From Planctomycetaceae bacterium (lineage in GTDB: Bacteria > Planctomycetota > Phycisphaerae > SM23-33), in NCBI GenBank assembly GCA_021371965.1, contig JAJFVE010000080.1, positions 1-31,486 on the forward strand: 31,486 bases of DNA. The letters are read 5' to 3'. A program made the translations under genes and the position numbers. Shown in pieces: positions 9,063 through 27,403 of the stretch (positions are counted from its first letter, which is position 1; the number at the start of each line of letters is the position of its first letter). The notes under the pieces were generated by a model. That model was given only the letters and a program-made list of their open reading frames with translations. It was not told the origin of the DNA and did no database searches.

Positions 9063-9266
9063 AGACGCCATCCCCGGGTTTGTCTCTTGACAATTTATTA
9101 GTGGCGCTGCCTGGCGGGGCCGCAATCATTCCATCAATTCCGCAATCCTTAATAAATCGATCCCACTGGCTGGCCGAATAATCCTGTTGGAGGCATGGGC
9201 AAGCGGATACTTGCAGCAAGGCACAGCCGTGATTGCTGCGACTTGTCCTATTGTCGAAGGAAACTG

Positions 9267-12658
<3,392 letters not shown>

Positions 12659-12662
<4 letters not shown>

Positions 12663-13561
12663 AGGTACTGATCATCGACGATTCGGCCGAAGCGCTGTTG
12701 CTGGCCAAGGCCCGCCTGGCCCAGGAATCGCTGGAGGTCATCTGCGCCAACAGCGGACGCGAGGGGCTCGATACGGCAGCGGCCGAGATGCCCGACCTGA
12801 TCCTGCTGGACGTGGACATGCCCGACATGTCGGGCTTTACCGTCTGCCAGATGCTCCAGCAGTCGCCCACGCTGTGCATGGTTCCGGTGATCTTCCTCAG
12901 CGGTTCACAGGACGCCCGGGACAAGGTTCGCGGCCTGGATCTCGGGGCGGTCGATTACGTCACCAAGCCCTTCGACGCCTTCGAGCTTCGCGCCCGCGTT
13001 CGGGCGGCGCTGCGGACCAAGCGTCTGCAGGACCTGCTGCTGACGTGCACGCAGATCGACCCGCTGACCGAACTGGGCAATCGCCGCGCGCTCGATGCCG
13101 GACTCCAGCAGGAATGGTCCCGCGCCGAACGAACCGGCACGCCGCTGGCGCTGGTAATGGTCGACATCGACCTGTTCAAGCGGGTCAACGACCACTTCGG
13201 GCACCATGGCGGCGACGACGTGCTCGCGCGAGTAGCCTCCATCCTGCGAAACCAGTGCCGCCAGTGCGACCGCGTCTTCCGCTATGGCGGCGAGGAATTC
13301 GTCCTCCTGCTGCCCGGCGAGAGCGCCGCCTCGGCCGCCAACGTCGCCGACCGCTGCCGCCGCGCGATCGCCCAGTGGCCCGTCAAGACTGTCAAGGGTG
13401 TCGTCGAAGTCACCGCCAGTTTCGGCACGGCCGACTCGCGCCAGGCCTCCTGTTCGCAGGAACTGATCGACCTGGCCGATGCCGCCATGTACAACGCCAA
13501 ACGCCAGGGCCGCAACTGCGTGTGCCTCGCGCAACAGCCTCAGCTTCGCCGGGCGGTGTGA
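12659..13561 (+). CDS. Response regulator with diguanylate cyclase output (REC-GGDEF)
   Basis: 300 residues, cytoplasmic. An N-terminal receiver has Asp51 in LILLDVDMPDMSG and Lys in VTKPFDAFELRAR. The GGDEF domain starts at DPLTELGNRRALD; the active site is GGEEF (residues 210-214), which is an active variant, and an RQCD motif upstream of FRYGGEEF matches the RxxD inhibitory site. The protein should make c-di-GMP when phosphorylated and be subject to product inhibition. Architecture resembles PleD-like regulators with a single receiver. The start ATG overlaps the TGA of the hybrid kinase (ATGA), with GGAG 7 nt upstream, so the HPt of that kinase is the probable phosphodonor. No EAL or HD-GYP phosphodiesterase is nearby. 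Confidence 0.93.
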
Positions 13562-13626: not shown

Positions 13627-15663
13627 TCACGAAGGCATGATGCGGAATGGCTGGGGACTGGTGCCGGTGACGTAGTAATAGATCGCGCCGTGGATCATCG
13701 GAAGGATCGCCCCCAGCAGATCGCCGGCGATGAGGCCGACCATGAACGGCCGGCCGGACTGGTAGGTCTTGCTCCCGCCGGCCTTGGTGACGATCACCTT
13801 GATCAGCCACCCCAGCAGGAACGACGACGACAGCGTCGTGCTCTGCCACGTCCCGAGCATGCAGAACAGCACCGGGTGGATCGGCCACCACGTCAGCTTC
13901 AGCCGCAGCACGGTCAGCACCAACACCACCGCCAGGCCCGCCCCCAGGGCGATCACGGTCGGGTAGTCCGGGCGCAGGTTCAAGAACCGCTCCAGTCCGG
14001 GCGCCGGTCCGCCCACCAGCGCCGGATCCGCATCGACCTTGGACTTGATGCGCGACAGGCCGTCGAGGGCAAAGGTCGGAACGCACGCCCACGTCCAACC
14101 GTCGCTGACAGTCTTGGCGCCATGCTGGTACTGCAAACCCAGCGTGACCGGCAAAGCCACGGCCATCGCCAGCACCAGCGCCACGCCGCCGAAGATTCCC
14201 ACGCGCCCCTGGGGCACGCCCTTGAGCTGCGCCAACTTCAGGCCCGTGACCATAAACGGCATGACCGCTTCGCGCGGGTCGATGAAAAGCAGCGTCGAGA
14301 CCAGGAACAATATCGCCAGCGAGTGCAGGTCCATCACGGTCAGGCCCAGGAACCCCAGCAGGACCTCGCACGGGAAATAGTACGAGTGGATAAAGAACAC
14401 GCCAGTCTCGGCCACAATGCGGCTGATGACCGTGTACAGCACCAGCGCGCCGACGGCGTAGAGGATCGCGATGGGCCAGTACACCCCCGCCACTGTCAGT
14501 TGCAGCACGAAGCACACGATGAAGACCAGGAAGGCCCGCGCCGCCCACGCCGACCAGGACGGTTGACCTCGCCCCAGCGGCAGAAACGGCAGCAGCGCTC
14601 GGCCGAAGACCGCGGCCAGGTACCGCCGCCCGGTATAGACCAGGCTCAGGAACAGCCCCGTGTACGCCCCGCAGTGGATGGCCCCGCGAAGCGAGCCGGC
14701 GAAGAAGCCCTTGTTGAGAACCACGCCGCGATCGAAGGCCACCGTGTTGGTCAGCGCCCACACGTACGGCGCCAGCCCCAGCGACAGCGACAGATCCGCC
14801 GAGAGGAAGTACGCGAAACCGACGGCCGTAGGAAAAAAGGGTTGGCTCATCAGCCACGCCATGTTTCCCTCGGCGTGCCAGCCGATGAGTTCGCCGACGG
14901 GGCCCAGGTCGATCCCCATGGGAATCTGGATCATGCTGAGCGGGTAGTACTTAAAGGCGTAGTTGTTGAGATGGATCAGCACGATGCCGACGCAAGAGAT
15001 CCAGAAGCCCGTGTTGCGCAAGATGCCGCTGCTGGCGCCGTCGGCGCGGGGCAGCAGCGTGTCGGCAAACTGCGCGATGGGATATCGTAGCCGCTCGCGC
15101 ATGGCCCACTGCCCGTGCAGCACCACCGACAGCGCGATCGTCGCCAGCCACAGGCTCAACAGCAGCGGCAGCCAGAACATCAGCGGACGCTTCCACACGT
15201 GCCAGGGAATCCTCACGGGCGTATCAACGGATTTGCCCGCTTCGTCGACCGGCTGCACGGTGAACGCTTCGACGTCGTGAGCGTTGGCCTGGGCAAGCAT
15301 CTGTTTGGGCACCAGATCCAGCAGCCGCGTGCGCTTCCAGGACAGGTCGCTCTGCCCGCGGGCCACGGGGAGCATGAGGACGTTGGTGAAGTAGTGCATG
15401 AGCCCGCGGCCGGGGATCGAGCAGGCGACCATCCCCAGGGCCATGATGACGGCCAGTTCGCCACCGCCCAGGGCCCACTTGCCGTGCATCAGCCGCACGA
15501 GGGGATTGATCGTCAGCACCACCAGCAGCACGCCGCCGAAGACGGAAATGGGCATGTAATTGCCGGTGAGATACGTGCCTCGCAGCACGTAATCATTGAA
15601 GAACGCCACGCCGCAGATAAACGCGGCCAGCGCCAGACCCAGCAATACGCATCGAAAGGTCAT
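13627..15663 (-). CDS. Polytopic membrane protein, DUF6785/DUF6784 type
   Basis: 678 residues with about 14 hydrophobic segments, starting with CVLLGLALAAFICGVAFFND. Recognisable family features: ISVFGGVLLVVLTINPLVRL, GELAVIMALGMVACSIPGRGLMHYF, and the C-terminal part LSSSFLLGWLIKVIVTKAGG and GRPFMVGLIAGDLLGAI, which I associate with DUF6785 followed by DUF6784, common in planctomycetes. A relationship to oligopeptide (OPT) transporters has been suggested by topology; the substrate is unknown. The start at 15663 places the first helix at the N-terminus; an in-frame ATG at 15828 would add 55 mainly polar residues and cross the promoter of the divergent gene. It converges with the diguanylate cyclase gene (65 bp gap). 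Confidence 0.75.
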   Translation of the reverse strand: MTFRCVLLGLALAAFICGVAFFNDYVLRGTYLTGNYMPISVFGGVLLVVLTINPLVRLMHGKWALGGGELAVIMALGMVACSIPGRGLMHYFTNVLMLPVARGQSDLSWKRTRLLDLVPKQMLAQANAHDVEAFTVQPVDEAGKSVDTPVRIPWHVWKRPLMFWLPLLLSLWLATIALSVVLHGQWAMRERLRYPIAQFADTLLPRADGASSGILRNTGFWISCVGIVLIHLNNYAFKYYPLSMIQIPMGIDLGPVGELIGWHAEGNMAWLMSQPFFPTAVGFAYFLSADLSLSLGLAPYVWALTNTVAFDRGVVLNKGFFAGSLRGAIHCGAYTGLFLSLVYTGRRYLAAVFGRALLPFLPLGRGQPSWSAWAARAFLVFIVCFVLQLTVAGVYWPIAILYAVGALVLYTVISRIVAETGVFFIHSYYFPCEVLLGFLGLTVMDLHSLAILFLVSTLLFIDPREAVMPFMVTGLKLAQLKGVPQGRVGIFGGVALVLAMAVALPVTLGLQYQHGAKTVSDGWTWACVPTFALDGLSRIKSKVDADPALVGGPAPGLERFLNLRPDYPTVIALGAGLAVVLVLTVLRLKLTWWPIHPVLFCMLGTWQSTTLSSSFLLGWLIKVIVTKAGGSKTYQSGRPFMVGLIAGDLLGAILPMIHGAIYYYVTGTSPQPFRIMPS

Positions 15664-15790
15664 CAGGTTCTCTGGAACGTTCCGGCGGTACTGCCGATGC
15701 GTGCGACGAACATATCTTACACCAATTGAAAACCCGCCGCCGGACAATGGTCCTGGTATTGGAAGTTTTTTCCAGCACGTCTCGCCCGCC

Positions 15791-15819
15791 TTGCCTTGCT
15801 TGTCCGGCCGATCTATAGT
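15791..15819 (+). promoter_or_regulatory. Promoter of the DUF1846 gene, giving a nearly leaderless transcript
   Basis: TTGCCT (15791-15796), a 17-bp spacer and TATAGT (15814-15819) lie just before the ATG at 15827. Transcription would start at or within a base or two of the ATG, and no ribosome binding site is present in the remaining 7 nt, so the mRNA should be leaderless. Confidence 0.5.
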
Positions 15820-15826
15820 GTCGGCC

Positions 15827-17386
15827 ATGAACGCTATAACTCCTGACGCAAATCAAGGCAGCCTGTGGTCCAACCGGGCTGAAGGATTCGACAACGAAGA
15901 GTATCTTGCCCAGCAGAGCGCAGCCATCTTGCAGCGGACCCCGCAGTCCGGAGGCAAGCTCTATCTGGAGTTCGGCGGCAAGCTGGTGTTCGACTACCAC
16001 GCCGCCCGCGTGCTTCCGGGGTACGACCCCAACGTCAAGATGCGCCTCCTGCAGCGCCTCAAGGCAGACGCCGAGATCATCCTGTGCATCTATGCCGGGC
16101 ATATCGAGCACAAGAAGATCCGCGGCGACTTCGGCATCACGTACGACGCCGACGCCTCCAAGCTCATCGACGACATCCGCCAGTGGGGCCTGGATGTCTC
16201 GGCCGTCGTTATCACGCGGTTTGAAGGCCAGCCGGGTGCGGTGGCCTTTCGCAACAAGCTCGAGCGCCGGGGCGTGCGCACGCTGACGCACGGAACGATC
16301 CGCGGATATCCCGCCGACGTGGACCTGATCGTCAGCGACAGCGGGTACGGCGCTAACGCATTTATCGAAACCACCAAGCCGCTGGTGGTGGTAACGGGCC
16401 CAGGGCCCAACAGCGGCAAGATGGCGACTTGCCTCTCGCAGGTCTATCACGAGCACCGCCGGGGCACACAGGCCGGGTACGCCAAGTTCGAGACATTCCC
16501 CATCTGGAACCTGCCCCTGCGCCATCCGGTGAACGTCGCGTACGAGGCAGCGACGGCCGACATCCGCGACTTCAACCTGATCGACCCCTTCCACCTCGAG
16601 GCCTACGGGGAGACCACGGTGAACTACAACCGGGACGTGGAGACATTCCCCGTGCTGCGGACGATTCTCCATCGCATCACCGGCGGCAAGGACGTCTATC
16701 GCTCGCCGACGGACATGGGCGTCAACCGTGCCGGGTTCGCCATCACCAACGACGCGTGCGTGCGCGAGGCCGCCGCGCAGGAAGTGATTCGCCGCTACTT
16801 CCGCACGGCGTGCGAGTACGCCCTGGGCATGGCCGAAAAGCAGACTGTCGACCGCCAGGAAGTGCTGATGCGCGAACTGGGCGTGACGCCCCAGAGCCGG
16901 CCGGTGGTGATCGCCGCTCGCGAGGCGGCCGCCGCCACCGCCCCGCAAGACAAAGGCAACAAGAACATCCTCTGCGCCGCGGCGATACAACTGCACCAGG
17001 GCCCGATCATCACCGGGCTCAATTCACCCTTGATGCACGCGGCCTCCAGCGCCGTGCTCAACACCCTGAAGCACCTGGGCGGGATCCCGCCCAAACTGCA
17101 CCTGCTCTCACCGGCCATCGTGCAATCGATCGCGCATCTCAAGCAGGAGATTCTCCAGCGCAAGACCCTCAGCCTGGACCTGGAAGAGACGCTCATTGCT
17201 CTATCGATCGCCGCGACGACCAATCCGACGGCCGAACTGGCCGTCTCGCAGCTCAAGGCCCTGCGCGGGTGCGAGGTGCACATGACGCACCTGCCTGCCC
17301 CGGGCGACGACGCGGGGCTGCGGCGCCTGGGCGTCAATCTCACCTGCGATCCGCAGTTCGCCACCGCCAGTTTGTTCGTGGGCTGA
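15827..17386 (+). CDS. DUF1846 (UPF0371) family protein
   Basis: 519 residues, normal for the family, with no signal or membrane segment. Matching stretches include GFDNEEYLAQQSAAI near the N-terminus, KLYLEFGGKLVFDYHAARVL, the conserved PGPNSGKMATCLSQVYHEH, KFETFPIWNLPL and PTDMGVNRAGFAI. The family is widespread and structurally known, but its biochemical function is not established; the PGPNSGKMATCL segment resembles a nucleotide-binding loop, which is suggestive only. The start is set by the family N-terminus and by the TATAGT box 7 nt upstream. It converges on carB with only 8 bp between stop codons and no terminator visible. Confidence 0.88.
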   Translation: MNAITPDANQGSLWSNRAEGFDNEEYLAQQSAAILQRTPQSGGKLYLEFGGKLVFDYHAARVLPGYDPNVKMRLLQRLKADAEIILCIYAGHIEHKKIRGDFGITYDADASKLIDDIRQWGLDVSAVVITRFEGQPGAVAFRNKLERRGVRTLTHGTIRGYPADVDLIVSDSGYGANAFIETTKPLVVVTGPGPNSGKMATCLSQVYHEHRRGTQAGYAKFETFPIWNLPLRHPVNVAYEAATADIRDFNLIDPFHLEAYGETTVNYNRDVETFPVLRTILHRITGGKDVYRSPTDMGVNRAGFAITNDACVREAAAQEVIRRYFRTACEYALGMAEKQTVDRQEVLMRELGVTPQSRPVVIAAREAAAATAPQDKGNKNILCAAAIQLHQGPIITGLNSPLMHAASSAVLNTLKHLGGIPPKLHLLSPAIVQSIAHLKQEILQRKTLSLDLEETLIALSIAATTNPTAELAVSQLKALRGCEVHMTHLPAPGDDAGLRRLGVNLTCDPQFATASLFVG

Positions 17387-23385: not shown

Positions 23386-23418
23386 TTGACCTACAGGATT
23401 TTGTAGGAAAAGTATATC
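23386..23418 (+). promoter_or_regulatory. Candidate kaiC promoter with overlapping inverted repeat
   Basis: TTGACC (23386-23391) and TATATC (23413-23418) are separated by 21 bp, longer than ideal. Within this spacer lies a perfect inverted repeat CCTACA-N6-TGTAGG (23390-23407), a reasonable size for a dimeric regulator binding site. The local region 23370-23460 is clearly AT-richer than the flanks. A 22-codon ORF from 23460 overlaps the kaiC start out of frame. The arrangement suggests a regulated promoter; no regulator is identified. Confidence 0.35.
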
Positions 23419-23488
23419 TTTGCGGGGAAGAAGCAATATATTTGTATTTGTTCCTGAACATGGCAGCTTACGTGAAAGAGAATCCGCA

Positions 23489-24925
23489 ATGTCTCGCCCC
23501 ACCAAGAAGACGCAACGCTCAACGCTAGAGCCTTTGGAAAAATGCCCCACCGGGATTGCCGGGCTTGATGAGGTCACGCTGGGCGGCTTGCCGCGCGGCC
23601 GACCGACGCTGGTGTGCGGTGCGGCCGGCTGCGGCAAAACACTGCTGGCGATGGAGTTCATCGTCCGGGGGATCCGCGAGTTCGGCGAGAACGGCGTCTT
23701 CATGTCGTTTGAAGAGAGCGAGGACGACCTGGTCAAGAACGTCGCCTCGCTGGGATTCGACCTCAAGGCCCTGCAGCGGCACAGCAAGTTGGTGCTCGAC
23801 CACGTCCACATCGAGCGGCGCGAGATCGAGGAGACCGGTGAGTACGACCTGGAAGGGCTCTTCGTGCGCCTCGGCGCGGCCATCGACAAAGTCGGCGCCA
23901 AGCGCGTGGCTATCGACACGCTCGAGGCGCTTTTTGCCGGCCTGCCTAACGAGGCGATCCTGCGCAGCGAGCTGCGGCGCCTGTTCCGCTGGCTGCGCGA
24001 GCGCGGCGTGACGGCGATCATCACCGGCGAAAAAGGCGAGCAGACCCTCACCCGCTACGGGCTGGAAGAGTACATCAGCGACTGCGTGATCTTCCTCGAC
24101 CATCGCATCGCCAATCAGATAGCCACCCGCCGCCTGCGCGTGGTGAAGTACCGCGGTTCGGCCCACGGCACGAACGAATACCCCACGATGATTGATACTT
24201 CCGGCCTGAGCGTCCTGCCGATCAGTTCGCTGGGGTTGGACTACCCCGTCGGCACGAAACGCATTTCGACCGGTGTCGATTGGCTCGACGGCATGCTCAG
24301 CGGCAAAGGATACATGGAAGGCAGCAGCATTCTCGTCAGCGGGACGGCCGGCACGGGCAAGACGACCCTTGCCGCGGCGTTTCTGGACGGCGTGTGCCGC
24401 CGCGGCGGGCGGTCGCTGTTCTTTTCCTTTGAAGAATCTCCCGCCCAGATCATCCGCAACATGCATTCGATCGGGATCGACATCCAGCGCCACTGCGACA
24501 AGGGGATGCTGAAGATACATTCCTCACGCTCGTCGCTGTACGGGCTCGAGCAGCACCTGGTCATGCTTCACCAGCTCGTCAAAGGGTTCAAGCCCAAGGC
24601 CGTCGTGATCGACCCGGTGACGAACCTGGCGCCTGTGGGCAGCAGCGACGAGATCAAGGCCATGCTCACCCGCATGATCGACTACCTCAAGAACGAGGGC
24701 GTCACGACCGTCTTCACGAGCCTGACCGAGGGCGGCGAGGCCCTGGACCGCACGGAGATCGCCATCTCCTCTCTCATGGACACCTGGCTGATGGCAGAGA
24801 TGGTGCTCCGCAACGAGCGGCGGCAGCGCCGCCTGAGCGTGCTCAAGAGCCGCGGGATGAGCCACTCCAACGAAATGCAACCTTTTGTGCTATCCGAGCG
24901 TGGAATTGAAATCTCCGACGTATAA
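23489..24925 (+). CDS. kaiC: KaiC-family dual-domain ATPase/autokinase
   Basis: 478 residues with two RecA-like domains. CI: Walker A GAAGCGKT (44-51), catalytic pair Glu75-Glu76 in FMSFEES. CII: Walker A GTAGTGKT (285-292), Glu pair in FFSFEES. In [11 protein letters not shown] aligns with the cyanobacterial HISTITDT, so Ser427-Ser428 replace Ser431-Thr432, the autophosphorylation sites. The protein ends [10 protein letters not shown], about 35-40 residues earlier than the 519-residue Synechococcus protein, so the tail that forms the A-loop and binds KaiA is missing. In cyanobacteria KaiC is the central clock ATPase; related KaiC proteins elsewhere act as timers or stress regulators. It heads kaiC-kaiB-kaiB-kinase with short gaps. 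The start at 23489 is by family length; its ribosome binding site is weak. Confidence 0.92.
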
Positions 24926-24951
24926 ACAATGTGACTTGGCAAAGGAAAGAC

Positions 24952-25287
24952 ATGGCAAAGACGGCAGTGCTGAACAGAAAGACTCGCCCCAACAAGGCCG
25001 CGGCAAATCCCGGTCTTTGGCAGTTGCGTCTTTACGTTGCCGGTCAGACGCCGCGAAGCGTGGCGGCCTTCGCCAACCTTAAGCGCATCTGCGAAGAGAA
25101 CATCCCGGGGCAATATGATATCGAGGTGATCGACCTGCTCAAGAATCCTCAGCTCGCCAAGGGCGACCAGATTCTGGCTGTGCCCACGCTGGTTCGCAAG
25201 CTTCCGGTGCCGGTGCGAAAAATCATTGGCGATCTGTCCAACACCGTGCGCGTCCTGGTCGGTTTGGACCTGCGCCAGAAGAGTTGA
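24952..25287 (+). CDS. kaiB: KaiB protein, canonical type
   Basis: 111 residues. The KaiB core begins [19 protein letters not shown] and continues [40 protein letters not shown] and VLVGLDL, very close to the cyanobacterial sequence. KaiB is a thioredoxin-like fold-switching protein that binds the CI ring of KaiC and lowers phosphorylation. About 27 residues of a basic N-terminal extension precede the core. AAAGGA about 5 nt before the ATG supports the start; it follows kaiC after 26 nt and is followed by a second kaiB. Retention of the fold-switch segment is inferred from similarity, not shown. Confidence 0.92.
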
Positions 25288-25292
25288 GTTTC

Positions 25293-25649
25293 ATGGCTCG
25301 AAAGAAAACATCTAGCGATACGGCGGCGATGGAAAGGGCACTGGCGGCCGCCCGCCAGGAGAATCCCGAGCGGCGCTACAAGCTGCGCCTGTACGTGGCC
25401 GGCGTTACGCCGCGCAGCGAGCAGGCGATCCGCAACGTCACGGCGCTGTGCGAGAAGCACCTGGCCGGCCAGTACGAGCTGGAGGTCATCGACCTCTACC
25501 AGAAGCCCGTGTTGGCCAAGGGCGAGCAGATTATCGCCGCCCCCACGCTCATCAAGGAACTGCCCCTGCCGCTGCGCCGGCTGATCGGAAGCATGTCGCA
25601 GGAAGAAAAGTTCCTGGTGGGCCTGGATCTCAAACCTCTTGAGGAATAG
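25293..25649 (+). CDS. Second, divergent KaiB protein
   Basis: 118 residues, starting 5 nt after the first kaiB. The core YKLRLYVAGVTPRSEQAI is followed by LEVIDLYQKPVLAKGEQII, APTLIKELPLPLRRLIGSMS and FLVGLDL, the same fold with substitutions such as YQKP for LKNP and GSMS for GDLS. An N-terminal extension of about 30 residues is charged and helical. Paired kaiB genes beside kaiC occur in several non-cyanobacteria, where the extra copy is often of the divergent type. The ATG at 25293 is preferred; a TTG at 25284 in the same frame is the alternative. It may compete with the first KaiB or act on the downstream kinase. Confidence 0.88.
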   Translation: MARKKTSSDTAAMERALAAARQENPERRYKLRLYVAGVTPRSEQAIRNVTALCEKHLAGQYELEVIDLYQKPVLAKGEQIIAAPTLIKELPLPLRRLIGSMSQEEKFLVGLDLKPLEE

Positions 25650-25660
25650 TACGTAATACC

Positions 25661-25680
25661 CTTGCGGCTCCGGCCGCAAG
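25661..25680 (+). promoter_or_regulatory. 8-bp perfect hairpin between kaiB2 and the kinase gene
   Basis: CTTGCGGC (25661-25668) and GCCGCAAG (25673-25680) form a perfect 8-bp stem with a TCCG loop, ending 7 nt before the kinase ATG at 25688. No U-run follows, so it is not a classic terminator. It would occupy the place of a ribosome binding site, which is otherwise absent, and could lower kinase translation or protect an mRNA end. It could also be a dispersed repeat. Confidence 0.5.
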
Positions 25681-25687
25681 CTACATT

Positions 25688-27403
25688 ATGGCAAAAAGCA
25701 AAAAGACATCTCATCTGCGCCCGCCCCTGGACGACTCGGGGCATGAGTTGCTCAAGGAGAATCGCCAGTTACGGGCGGAGTTGGCCGAGGCCAACGAGAC
25801 ACTCGCCGCCATCCGCAGCGGAGAAGTTGACGCTATTGTCGTCGACGGGTCGCAGGGTCAGCAGGTCTATTCGCTTTCGGGGGCAGAGTCGGTTTATCGC
25901 CTCATCGTCGAAACGATGAACGAGGCCGCCACCACCGTATCGATGGAAGGAACGATCCTTTACTGCAACGCCCAGTTCGCACAGTTGGTGGCCTGCCCGC
26001 TCGAGAACGTCGTCGGCCATTCAATCTGGAAGTTCGTGCCGCCCGACCAGAGGGCGGCAGTGGATTCGTTGCTTAAGGGCGATGCTCCTCTGCGCCGGCG
26101 GCTGGTGCTCAAGACCTGCGACGATTGCACCGTGGCGGTGCTGGTGGCGGGCAGTTTCCTCGGCGGCGCCGAAGCGCCCAGCATCTGCCTGGTGGCCACC
26201 GACCTGACGGACCTGGAAGACACGCGCCAGGCCCGCGAGAAACTCGAACGCGCCGTGGCCCAGCGTACCGAGACCCTGCGACTTCGCTCACAGCAACTGC
26301 AGACCCTCACCTCCGAACTGACGATGGCCGAGCAGCACGAACGCCAGCGACTGGCCCGCGTCCTGCACGACGACCTCCAGCAGCTCCTGGTCGGCGTCAA
26401 GTACCGTTTGGTCACGCTGGACCGCTCGAAAGATCCCGGCGTGCTCGCGGCCGCCGGGGCCGTCAACGAACTCATCAACCAGGCCCTCGATTGCTCGCGC
26501 TCGCTGACCGGCGAGCTGTTCCCGCCGATCCTGCAGCAGGCGGGGCTGGCGGCCGCCCTGGAATGGCTGGCTGACTGGATGCACCAGAAGCACGGCCTGA
26601 CGGTGGACCTGGAGACCGATCCCGATGCGCAGCCGGAGACCGAAGATATGGCGGTGCTGCTCTTCCAGGCCGTGCGCGAGCTGCTCTTTAACGTGGTGAA
26701 ACATGCCTCCGTCACCGGTGCCGCGGTGCGCCTGCGGCGCATCGACGGACAGTTGGAAATAACGGTAGCCGACGCGGGCAAGGGTTTCGATCCACAGCAT
26801 GCCCTTTCCCGGGCGGGCAAGACCGGCGGGCTTGGCCTGCTGAGCATCCGCGAGAGGCTCGACCTCATGGGCGGCAGCATGCACGTGCGATCCGGCGCCG
26901 GCAAGGGTAGCCGGTTCACGCTTCTGGCGCCCGTGCGCCCGGCCATTGTCGAGGTCCAGCCCCTGGCGGCAGACCTTCAGGAAACCGCTGCGGCCCAGCA
27001 TCCGGCCGGCGGCAGGCAAGCGAATGGCCCAACACGCACCATCCGCGTGCTGCTGGCGGACGACCACGTCGTCATGCGCCAGGGGCTTTCGCACATGCTG
27101 CATAGCGAAGACGACATCGAGGTCGTCGGCGAGGCCTCCGACGGCGCCGCGGCCGTCGAACTCGCCCGGCGCAAACAGCCCGACGTGGTGCTGATGGACA
27201 TCAACATGCCCATCATGGACGGTCTGGAGGCCACGCGTATTATCCACGCCGAAATGCCCGCAGCGCGGGTCATCGGCCTGTCGATGTTCGAGGAGTCCGA
27301 ACCGGCCAACGCCATGATCGCCGCCGGCGCCGAGCGCTACCTCACCAAGAGCGGCCCGTCCGAGCACCTCATCGCCGCCATCCGAGGCGAACGGGCGGAG
27401 TAG
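25688..27403 (+). CDS. PAS-histidine kinase (HisKA_3 type) with C-terminal receiver domain
   Basis: 571 residues, no membrane segment, so cytoplasmic. Order: coiled coil with LLKENRQLRAELAEANETL, PAS domain (about 72-180; YRLIVETMNEAATTVSMEGT), HisKA_3 dimerisation domain with His227 in RQRLARVLHDDLQQLL, an ATPase domain with RELLFNVVKHA, VADAGKGFD and GGLGLLSIRERLDLMGG, a linker, and a NarL-like receiver with Asp504 in VVLMDINMPIMDG and Lys in YLTKSGPSEHL. There is no DNA-binding or other output domain. Because a HisKA_3 kinase usually phosphorylates a NarL-type receiver, self-phosphorelay is likely. It lies 38 nt after the second kaiB, on the same strand, and is the probable output or input component of the Kai module. 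Hybrid kinases beside kaiBC are reported in other bacteria. Confidence 0.9.
   Translation: MAKSKKTSHLRPPLDDSGHELLKENRQLRAELAEANETLAAIRSGEVDAIVVDGSQGQQVYSLSGAESVYRLIVETMNEAATTVSMEGTILYCNAQFAQLVACPLENVVGHSIWKFVPPDQRAAVDSLLKGDAPLRRRLVLKTCDDCTVAVLVAGSFLGGAEAPSICLVATDLTDLEDTRQAREKLERAVAQRTETLRLRSQQLQTLTSELTMAEQHERQRLARVLHDDLQQLLVGVKYRLVTLDRSKDPGVLAAAGAVNELINQALDCSRSLTGELFPPILQQAGLAAALEWLADWMHQKHGLTVDLETDPDAQPETEDMAVLLFQAVRELLFNVVKHASVTGAAVRLRRIDGQLEITVADAGKGFDPQHALSRAGKTGGLGLLSIRERLDLMGGSMHVRSGAGKGSRFTLLAPVRPAIVEVQPLAADLQETAAAQHPAGGRQANGPTRTIRVLLADDHVVMRQGLSHMLHSEDDIEVVGEASDGAAAVELARRKQPDVVLMDINMPIMDGLEATRIIHAEMPAARVIGLSMFEESEPANAMIAAGAERYLTKSGPSEHLIAAIRGERAE

Follow-up and report, generated by a model that had tools for sequence, protein, structure and literature searches.

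The contig JAJFVE010000080.1 of a Planctomycetaceae bacterium (GCA_021371965.1), a stretch of 31,486 nucleotides referred to here as the window, contains an operon of four plus-strand genes that encode a KaiC, two different KaiBs and a hybrid histidine kinase. Judged by sequence, it appears to be a widespread bacterial and archaeal timer operon akin to the cyanobacterial clock. At a probability of roughly 0.55, we consider it a timer or ATP/ADP-state device of the KaiC2-KaiB type that works without KaiA and has an output kinase of its own; the KaiC-KaiB state would be read via a module at the N-terminus of that kinase. The KaiC2-KaiB hourglass operon is a known kind of system; new here are the module, the two KaiB lineages together with the tracking of KaiB-II and KaiC by the module, and a KaiC without tail. 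Among these, the kaiBC-linked module is the most useful new point of our analysis.

The features of the operon, with lengths in amino acids (aa), are:

23489..24925, plus strand: kaiC, 478 aa from ATG, KaiC2-type, tail-less (PF06745 twice; best PDB chains)
24767..24772, plus strand: codons of the Ser427-Ser428 phosphosite (alignment to Rhodobacter sphaeroides LSSLMD)
24914..24925, plus strand: early C-terminus of KaiC, with residues 476-478 followed by the stop (tail comparison)
24952..25287, plus strand: first kaiB (KaiB-I), 111 aa, canonical lineage (PF07689; PDB; lineage tree)
25293..25649, plus strand: second kaiB (KaiB-II), 118 aa, distinct lineage (PF07689; YQ signature)
25688..27403, plus strand: hybrid histidine kinase, 571 aa (PAS, HisKA_3, HATPase_c, Response_reg in Pfam)
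25748..25924, plus strand: N-terminal module of the kinase, aa 21-79 (kaiBC-linked profile, AlphaFold2)
25895..26209, plus strand: PAS domain of the kinase, aa 70-174 (Pfam, AlphaFold2)
26339..26938, plus strand: HisKA_3 and HATPase_c core of the kinase, aa 218-417, His227 (Pfam, residue check)
27047..27385, plus strand: receiver domain of the kinase, aa 454-566, Asp504 (Pfam, residue check)

A preliminary description of this DNA had given gaps of 26, 5 and 38 nucleotides between the four genes, which is exact with ATG starts at 24952, 25293 and 25688. It also let kaiC begin at 23386, a position that is out of frame; the start is most likely the ATG at 23489, and a TTG at 23420 is possible. 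The operon is flanked by open reading frames (ORFs) on the opposite strand; the upstream one encodes a metallophosphoesterase, and the downstream one is sialate O-acetylesterase-like. A Pfam scan of 24 ORFs of the window revealed no KaiA domain (part of the search at E 1e-5; smaller ORFs were not scanned).

The kinase and its N-terminal module

The kinase was correctly described as carrying a PAS domain and a fused receiver. Its H-box, N-box, G-boxes and receiver Asp are all present, and it is thus a hybrid HisKA_3 kinase; no output domain was found behind the receiver with Pfam. It is not a SasA, which has a KaiB-like N-terminal domain and HisKA: there is no PF07689 match in the kinase and its core is of the HisKA_3 type. 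As a separate matter, a KaiB-kinase fusion was considered as Rosetta-stone evidence and dropped, with PF07689 in 0 of the 120 matches listed of 3559 kinase homologues.

What had been overlooked is a stretch of about 59 residues ahead of the PAS domain that is common to all 77 picked kinases (76 loci and the window), which were picked with a profile that includes this module. An AlphaFold2 model of the window row (70 sequences, mean predicted local distance difference test score, pLDDT, of 90.6) predicts that a long helix is followed by a beta hairpin and then by another helix running into the PAS domain, the hairpin and the next helix being the least certain part (block pLDDT 61-88). No Pfam match reaches into the helix or hairpin of the window module, and two NCBIfam models touch part of the module at 16-18 bits, with cut-offs of 400 and 795. 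All PDB sequence matches that were listed (60 of 75) start at profile position 46 or later, and the top Foldseek hits are PAS proteins, of which the longest match has a poor root mean square deviation. Mean column identity in one alignment (A3, 70 of the 77 rows) is 67% for the module versus 47% for the PAS domain behind it. The module is unmentioned in the KaiBC literature that we found, which consists mostly of open papers and to which no search aimed at the module was directed; it may be in print.

The preliminary description had proposed a dedicated kinase for a KaiA-less KaiBC set, and the linkage of the module bears this out. The module profile and PF07689 were run on the same 981 genomes of five phyla, the phylum being that of the centre locus, and a module match was called full-length at 32 bits or more over at least 45 of 59 positions. 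Since the initial scan scored a limited number of candidates in some genomes, the module counts are lower bounds. At least 44 full-length copies were detected; 42 of the 44 lie within 3 kilobases of kaiB, and 37 of these 42 within 200 base pairs. A KaiB above the cut-off is present in all 38 module-carrier genomes, and still in 33 of 33 once the five centre genomes are set aside, versus 79 of 981 genomes overall. Weak or partial matches, counted apart, amount to 15, two of them near kaiB. One non-adjacent copy (L123) is next to a KaiC fragment where its contig ends, and the other, L124, is discussed below. The operon kinase of R. sphaeroides carries the module as well (51 bits). A tblastn search of plasmids with a 65-aa peptide of the window hit 1 of 72,556 records, a kaiC-kaiB-kaiB-response regulator operon, and is a weak control that missed diverged module copies on R. 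sphaeroides, Falsirhodobacter and Rhizobium plasmids found by the profile.

KaiB itself is sparse in Planctomycetota (11 of 179 genomes over the cut-off). In Pseudomonadota, seven of 33 KaiB-positive genomes have a full-length module, and we fetched 13 of the 26 others. Twelve of these 13 module-free loci (L105-L116) contain a KaiC of another kind with scores of about 350-420, and in L117 no KaiC is visible. Beside a full-length module, KaiC scores 660-930 in most loci, the exceptions being L136 (490) and L087 (413, weak module). Three archaeal loci (L102-L104) combine a KaiC2-type KaiC with the KaiB-I lineage only and have no module.

Two side observations concern the kinases and their carriers. 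The archaeal kaiBC loci L094, L095 and L099 have two module kinases each, which flank the genes or stand in tandem. KaiC2-KaiB-kinase operons are found on alphaproteobacterial plasmids (L118, L119, L120 and L122), two of which are typed as conjugative.

Two KaiB lineages in a conserved operon

Both KaiBs of the window match PF07689 well (91.9 and 84.3 bits, cut-off 27), and the best PDB match of either is the KaiB of R. sphaeroides (8fwj for the first). We name them KaiB-I and KaiB-II, since the published names KaiB1, KaiB2 and KaiB3 mean other things. The earlier statement that the two types differ is supported in two ways. In a FastTree phylogeny of 73 and 74 rows with few columns, the lineages lie on opposite sides of one branch (support 96), and 12 columns, chosen as separating, split them without overlap. 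KaiB-II is marked by a conserved YQ (IDLYQKP in the window), while the R. sphaeroides KaiB sits on the KaiB-I side by signature. Three prolines of that protein, P58, P65 and P67, are matched in both window KaiBs (PTL and LP.P aligned), and have been tied to fold switching (PMC11551320). An origin of KaiB-II as a domain split from SasA was considered and set aside: against the SasA model, KaiB-II scores higher than KaiB-I (28 versus 15 bits), yet both are far under the cut-off of 342. A further alignment, A4, used 69 of 74 available rows.

To place the operon among other genomes, one genome per species was scanned with the KaiB-II alignment, and the best 80 of 154 confirmed places were kept, in which KaiB-II is present by construction. 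By their titles, these loci span Planctomycetota, Pseudomonadota, Thermodesulfobacteriota, Acidobacteriota, Chloroflexota, archaea and others. A KaiC frame lies upstream in 78 of the 80, archaea included, and the gene order is not unusual. Two or more KaiBs occur in 73/80 loci and one in 7/80, and a module kinase starts within 500 base pairs downstream in 76/80; of the remaining four, three reach a contig end and L047 has no such kinase. Consequently, the view that two KaiBs and a soluble kinase represent an unusual wiring is not supported.

Distances of the helix-hairpin part of the module were further compared with those of the Kai proteins in 58 sets that have all parts. They track KaiB-II when KaiB-I and KaiC are given (partial r 0.286, reached by 0 of 500 permutations) and KaiC (0.256), yet not KaiB-I (0.006, 244 of 500 permutations). 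In these kinases, the PAS domain follows KaiB-II (0.241) and KaiB-I (0.263) about equally; the bootstrap difference was 0.282 (0.095 to 0.472). Such tracking is indirect and no proof of contact. A stricter idea, that KaiB-II is a condition for the module, was given up: 30 of 33 KaiB-II loci score at least 59 bits and 8 of 11 KaiB-I-only loci 23-67 bits, which is a tendency only, and L089 and L090 were called KaiB-II on a weak signature. A count of 17 versus 8 loci for module and KaiB-II gave p 4e-5, with related loci included and a profile biased to KaiB-II loci.

KaiC and its missing tail

The window KaiC comprises two PF06745 stretches and thus two RecA-like ATPase domains, as in KaiC2 proteins, and its best PDB relatives are R. 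sphaeroides KaiC chains. The two ATPase sites and the serine pair reported before are confirmed by Walker A sites at residues 44 and 285, by EE pairs in both domains and by the alignment of S427-S428 with the LSSLMD site of R. sphaeroides. Such a two-serine phosphosite is part of the definition of the KaiC2 subgroup (PMC5520375). The C-terminal extension, which is predominant but not universal in KaiC2, is missing.

That the KaiA-binding tail is absent had been noticed, which is right but understated: the protein stops three residues past the conserved GIEI, so the entire tail is gone, and it had escaped notice that nearly all relatives carry a long tail of another kind. Among 202 KaiC rows, fragments included, tail length past GIEI is bimodal, with 90-120 residues in 173 and at most 25 in 19; seven of the remaining rows are intermediate and three have tails longer than 120. 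A frameshift that conceals a tail in this gene can be dismissed, because KaiB-I starts 26 nucleotides on and the cluster of the window KaiC protein is present on two contigs.

In an unrooted tree of 129 rows, for which 15 incomplete rows were dropped and listed proteins above P0300 with tails >60 aa were thinned, the 15 tail-less rows need eight changes, at least seven of them forced by well supported branches. A second unrooted tree of 54 rows, with 40 hand-picked tailed rows and without the long branch L072, gave seven tail changes; on these 54 rows a single tail-less clade, named after the first tree was seen, was rejected (approximately unbiased test, p 4.8e-9). We read the changes as losses, since the tail-less rows nest among tailed ones. 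The window KaiC groups with two metagenome proteins in the larger tree (support 87) and falls in no starred set of the smaller one.

By alignment, the last residue of the window KaiC corresponds to about position 464-466 of the R. sphaeroides protein, and thus the window KaiC probably lacks the A-loop too. The tail of R. sphaeroides KaiC forms a 12-helix bundle, and a protein cut at residue 490 (delta-coil) is a hexamer with autophosphorylation and exchange near the wild-type rate, which loses the acceleration of dephosphorylation by the tail and is disassembled upon KaiB binding; the model of this truncated KaiC reaches Pro463 only (PMC10076222). The window KaiC may differ from it in behaviour. 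A naturally tail-less KaiC represents a natural test of the role of the coiled-coil tail.

How the operon may work

By homology, the KaiC hexamer would autophosphorylate on S427/S428 without KaiA, and KaiB-I would bind the CI ring after ATP hydrolysis, favouring the dephosphorylated state. A tail-less hexamer cannot be expected to build a dodecamer of the R. sphaeroides type; therefore, KaiB binding is predicted to dismantle it. The helix-hairpin module is probably the clock-reading part of the kinase; we infer both its partner, most likely KaiB-II and/or KaiC, and the direction of signalling. The readout would set autophosphorylation of His227, with transfer to Asp504 of the same kinase and onward to a regulator. 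One might speculate further that the module is a dedicated KaiBC-reading output adaptor, unrelated to the KaiB-like domain of SasA and common to archaea and many bacterial phyla, and that KaiB-II is an ancient second KaiB that couples KaiC to the module, with KaiB-I serving timing. Recurrent tail loss would then have replaced the stable dodecamer by a hexamer that KaiB dismantles, and some lineages would keep time through this assembly and disassembly, not through a register shift of the coiled coil. We regard this extension as tentative and rather doubtful.

Several observations weigh against an output kinase read through the module. The copy L124 is an orphan module kinase on the stretch fetched. 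KaiB alone does not need the module, as 41 of the 79 KaiB-carrying genomes have no full-length copy, and two loci with both KaiBs (L125, and L142, which is L047's locus) have no adjoining module kinase. Eight of 11 KaiB-I-only loci keep the module at lower scores, so that KaiB-II is not required, and module scores depend on a profile built from KaiB-II loci. In addition, the AlphaFold2 model of KaiB-II is poor (pLDDT 50.5). As an observation in its own right, L124 (G867 C220) is a 1776-aa frame without kaiB or kaiC on its stretch, and the same genome has a normal kaiBC module locus.

The strongest competing scenario is an ATP/ADP or stress switch instead of a daily timer, in which KaiC2 reports the energy state over minutes to hours; we rate it a serious contender at somewhat below even odds. 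Many of the carriers are probably non-phototrophs, for example Methanosarcina and Desulfovibrio, next to phototrophs such as Oscillochloris and Thiohalocapsa. Phosphorylation of R. sphaeroides KaiC occurs within roughly half an hour, and the binding of KaiB tracks ADP, not the phosphorylation state (PMC10076222); a role in the stress response of Legionella has also been reported (PMC5520375). However, kaiC of Rhodopseudomonas palustris is reported to be of benefit in 24-h light-dark cycles and of none in constant light or 1-h cycles (PMC4794148).

Alternatively, the kinase could be an input: its PAS domain would sense oxygen, redox or a metabolite, a signal that the module would relay to KaiBC. 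For the kaiBC operon kinase of R. sphaeroides, a role in transducing redox signals to KaiBC has been suggested (PMC5520375; PMC10931921), and heme and flavin PAS sensors are among the PDB matches of the PAS region. Yet a complete kinase and a receiver follow the PAS domain, and what stands behind the module varies: the HisKA_3-type core profile matches 13 of the 77 module kinases, and the R. sphaeroides kinase is annotated as HWE. Because of this variation an output adaptor fits better, and we consider an input unlikely.

Similarly improbable is that the module is no more than a PAS N-cap and coiled coil that shares the history of kaiBC without Kai contact. It is a helix and hairpin ahead of a PAS domain, and PAS and LOV domains often have helical N-caps. 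However, it is more conserved than the PAS domain, is kaiB-linked in five phyla and has a divergence pattern unlike that of PAS. Finally, a degenerate KaiC in a decaying locus is very improbable: most relatives do keep the long tail, but ATPase sites and phosphosites are conserved, the position of KaiB-I leaves no room for a tail remnant, and 14 further KaiCs on the tree are tail-less, of which eight are accompanied in their loci by two KaiBs and a module kinase.

Other genes of the window

Elsewhere, at 9195-13561, a CHASE-PAS-HisKA-HATPase-receiver-Hpt kinase overlaps a same-strand receiver-GGDEF gene, a pair that likely forms a phosphorelay to cyclic di-GMP. A DUF6785/DUF6784 protein and a DUF1846 protein are encoded at 13627-17386.

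Comparison with known systems

Kinases or GGDEF/EAL proteins adjoining kaiC-kaiB were reported in 2011 (PMC3164672). In Ramlibacter, as in the window, kaiC stands ahead of a specific kinase whose N-terminal region (Nt_HK) is conserved; in contrast, that context has no kaiB, and the N-terminal domain is described as KaiB/SasA-like, the likeness being drawn from the description (PMC3164672). The KaiA3-KaiB3-KaiC3 system shares KaiB and KaiC homologues outside the canonical cluster (PMC11372060), whereas no KaiA3-like gene was seen in the scanned window ORFs, and the fetched loci with another kind of KaiC lacked the module. In the Pseudomonadota loci L105-L114, whose KaiC is of this other kind, kaiB is accompanied by frames with a receiver, about 290-365 aa long from stop to stop, a layout broadly like that of the KaiA3 clusters (PMC11372060).

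With cyanobacterial KaiABC and SasA the operon has in common the double ATPase of KaiC, a KaiB and a kinase taken to read KaiC. It differs in that no KaiA was found in the window ORFs scanned, that its kinase has a HisKA_3 core and no KaiB domain, and that its phosphosites are two Ser instead of Ser-Thr.

The order kaiC-kaiB-PAS/histidine kinase has been published for both R. palustris and R. sphaeroides (PMC4794148). The proto-circadian operon of R. palustris shares this order with the window and has TSS phosphosites; it is described with one KaiB, and we liken it to the window by that description (PMC4794148).

The closest counterpart is the KaiBC hourglass of R. sphaeroides, which likewise has a KaiC2 with SS phosphosites, a KaiB that is KaiB-I-like by signature and, directly downstream, a kinase with the same N-terminal module. 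On plasmid pRSKD131A, its kaiC is followed directly by a single KaiB gene and then by the HWE kinase gene, while the window has a second KaiB lineage; its KaiC has a dodecamer-forming tail, which the window KaiC lacks; and its kinase is annotated as HWE, with no receiver-profile match worth counting, in contrast to the HisKA_3 hybrid of the window. The term 'histidine kinase' is absent from the main text of the hourglass paper (PMC10076222), which consequently does not name the operon kinase as output, and a literature search joining KaiC, KaiB and 'HWE histidine kinase' gave no match. With a module that travels almost only with kaiBC and is also present in the R. sphaeroides kinase, the question of output becomes directly testable.

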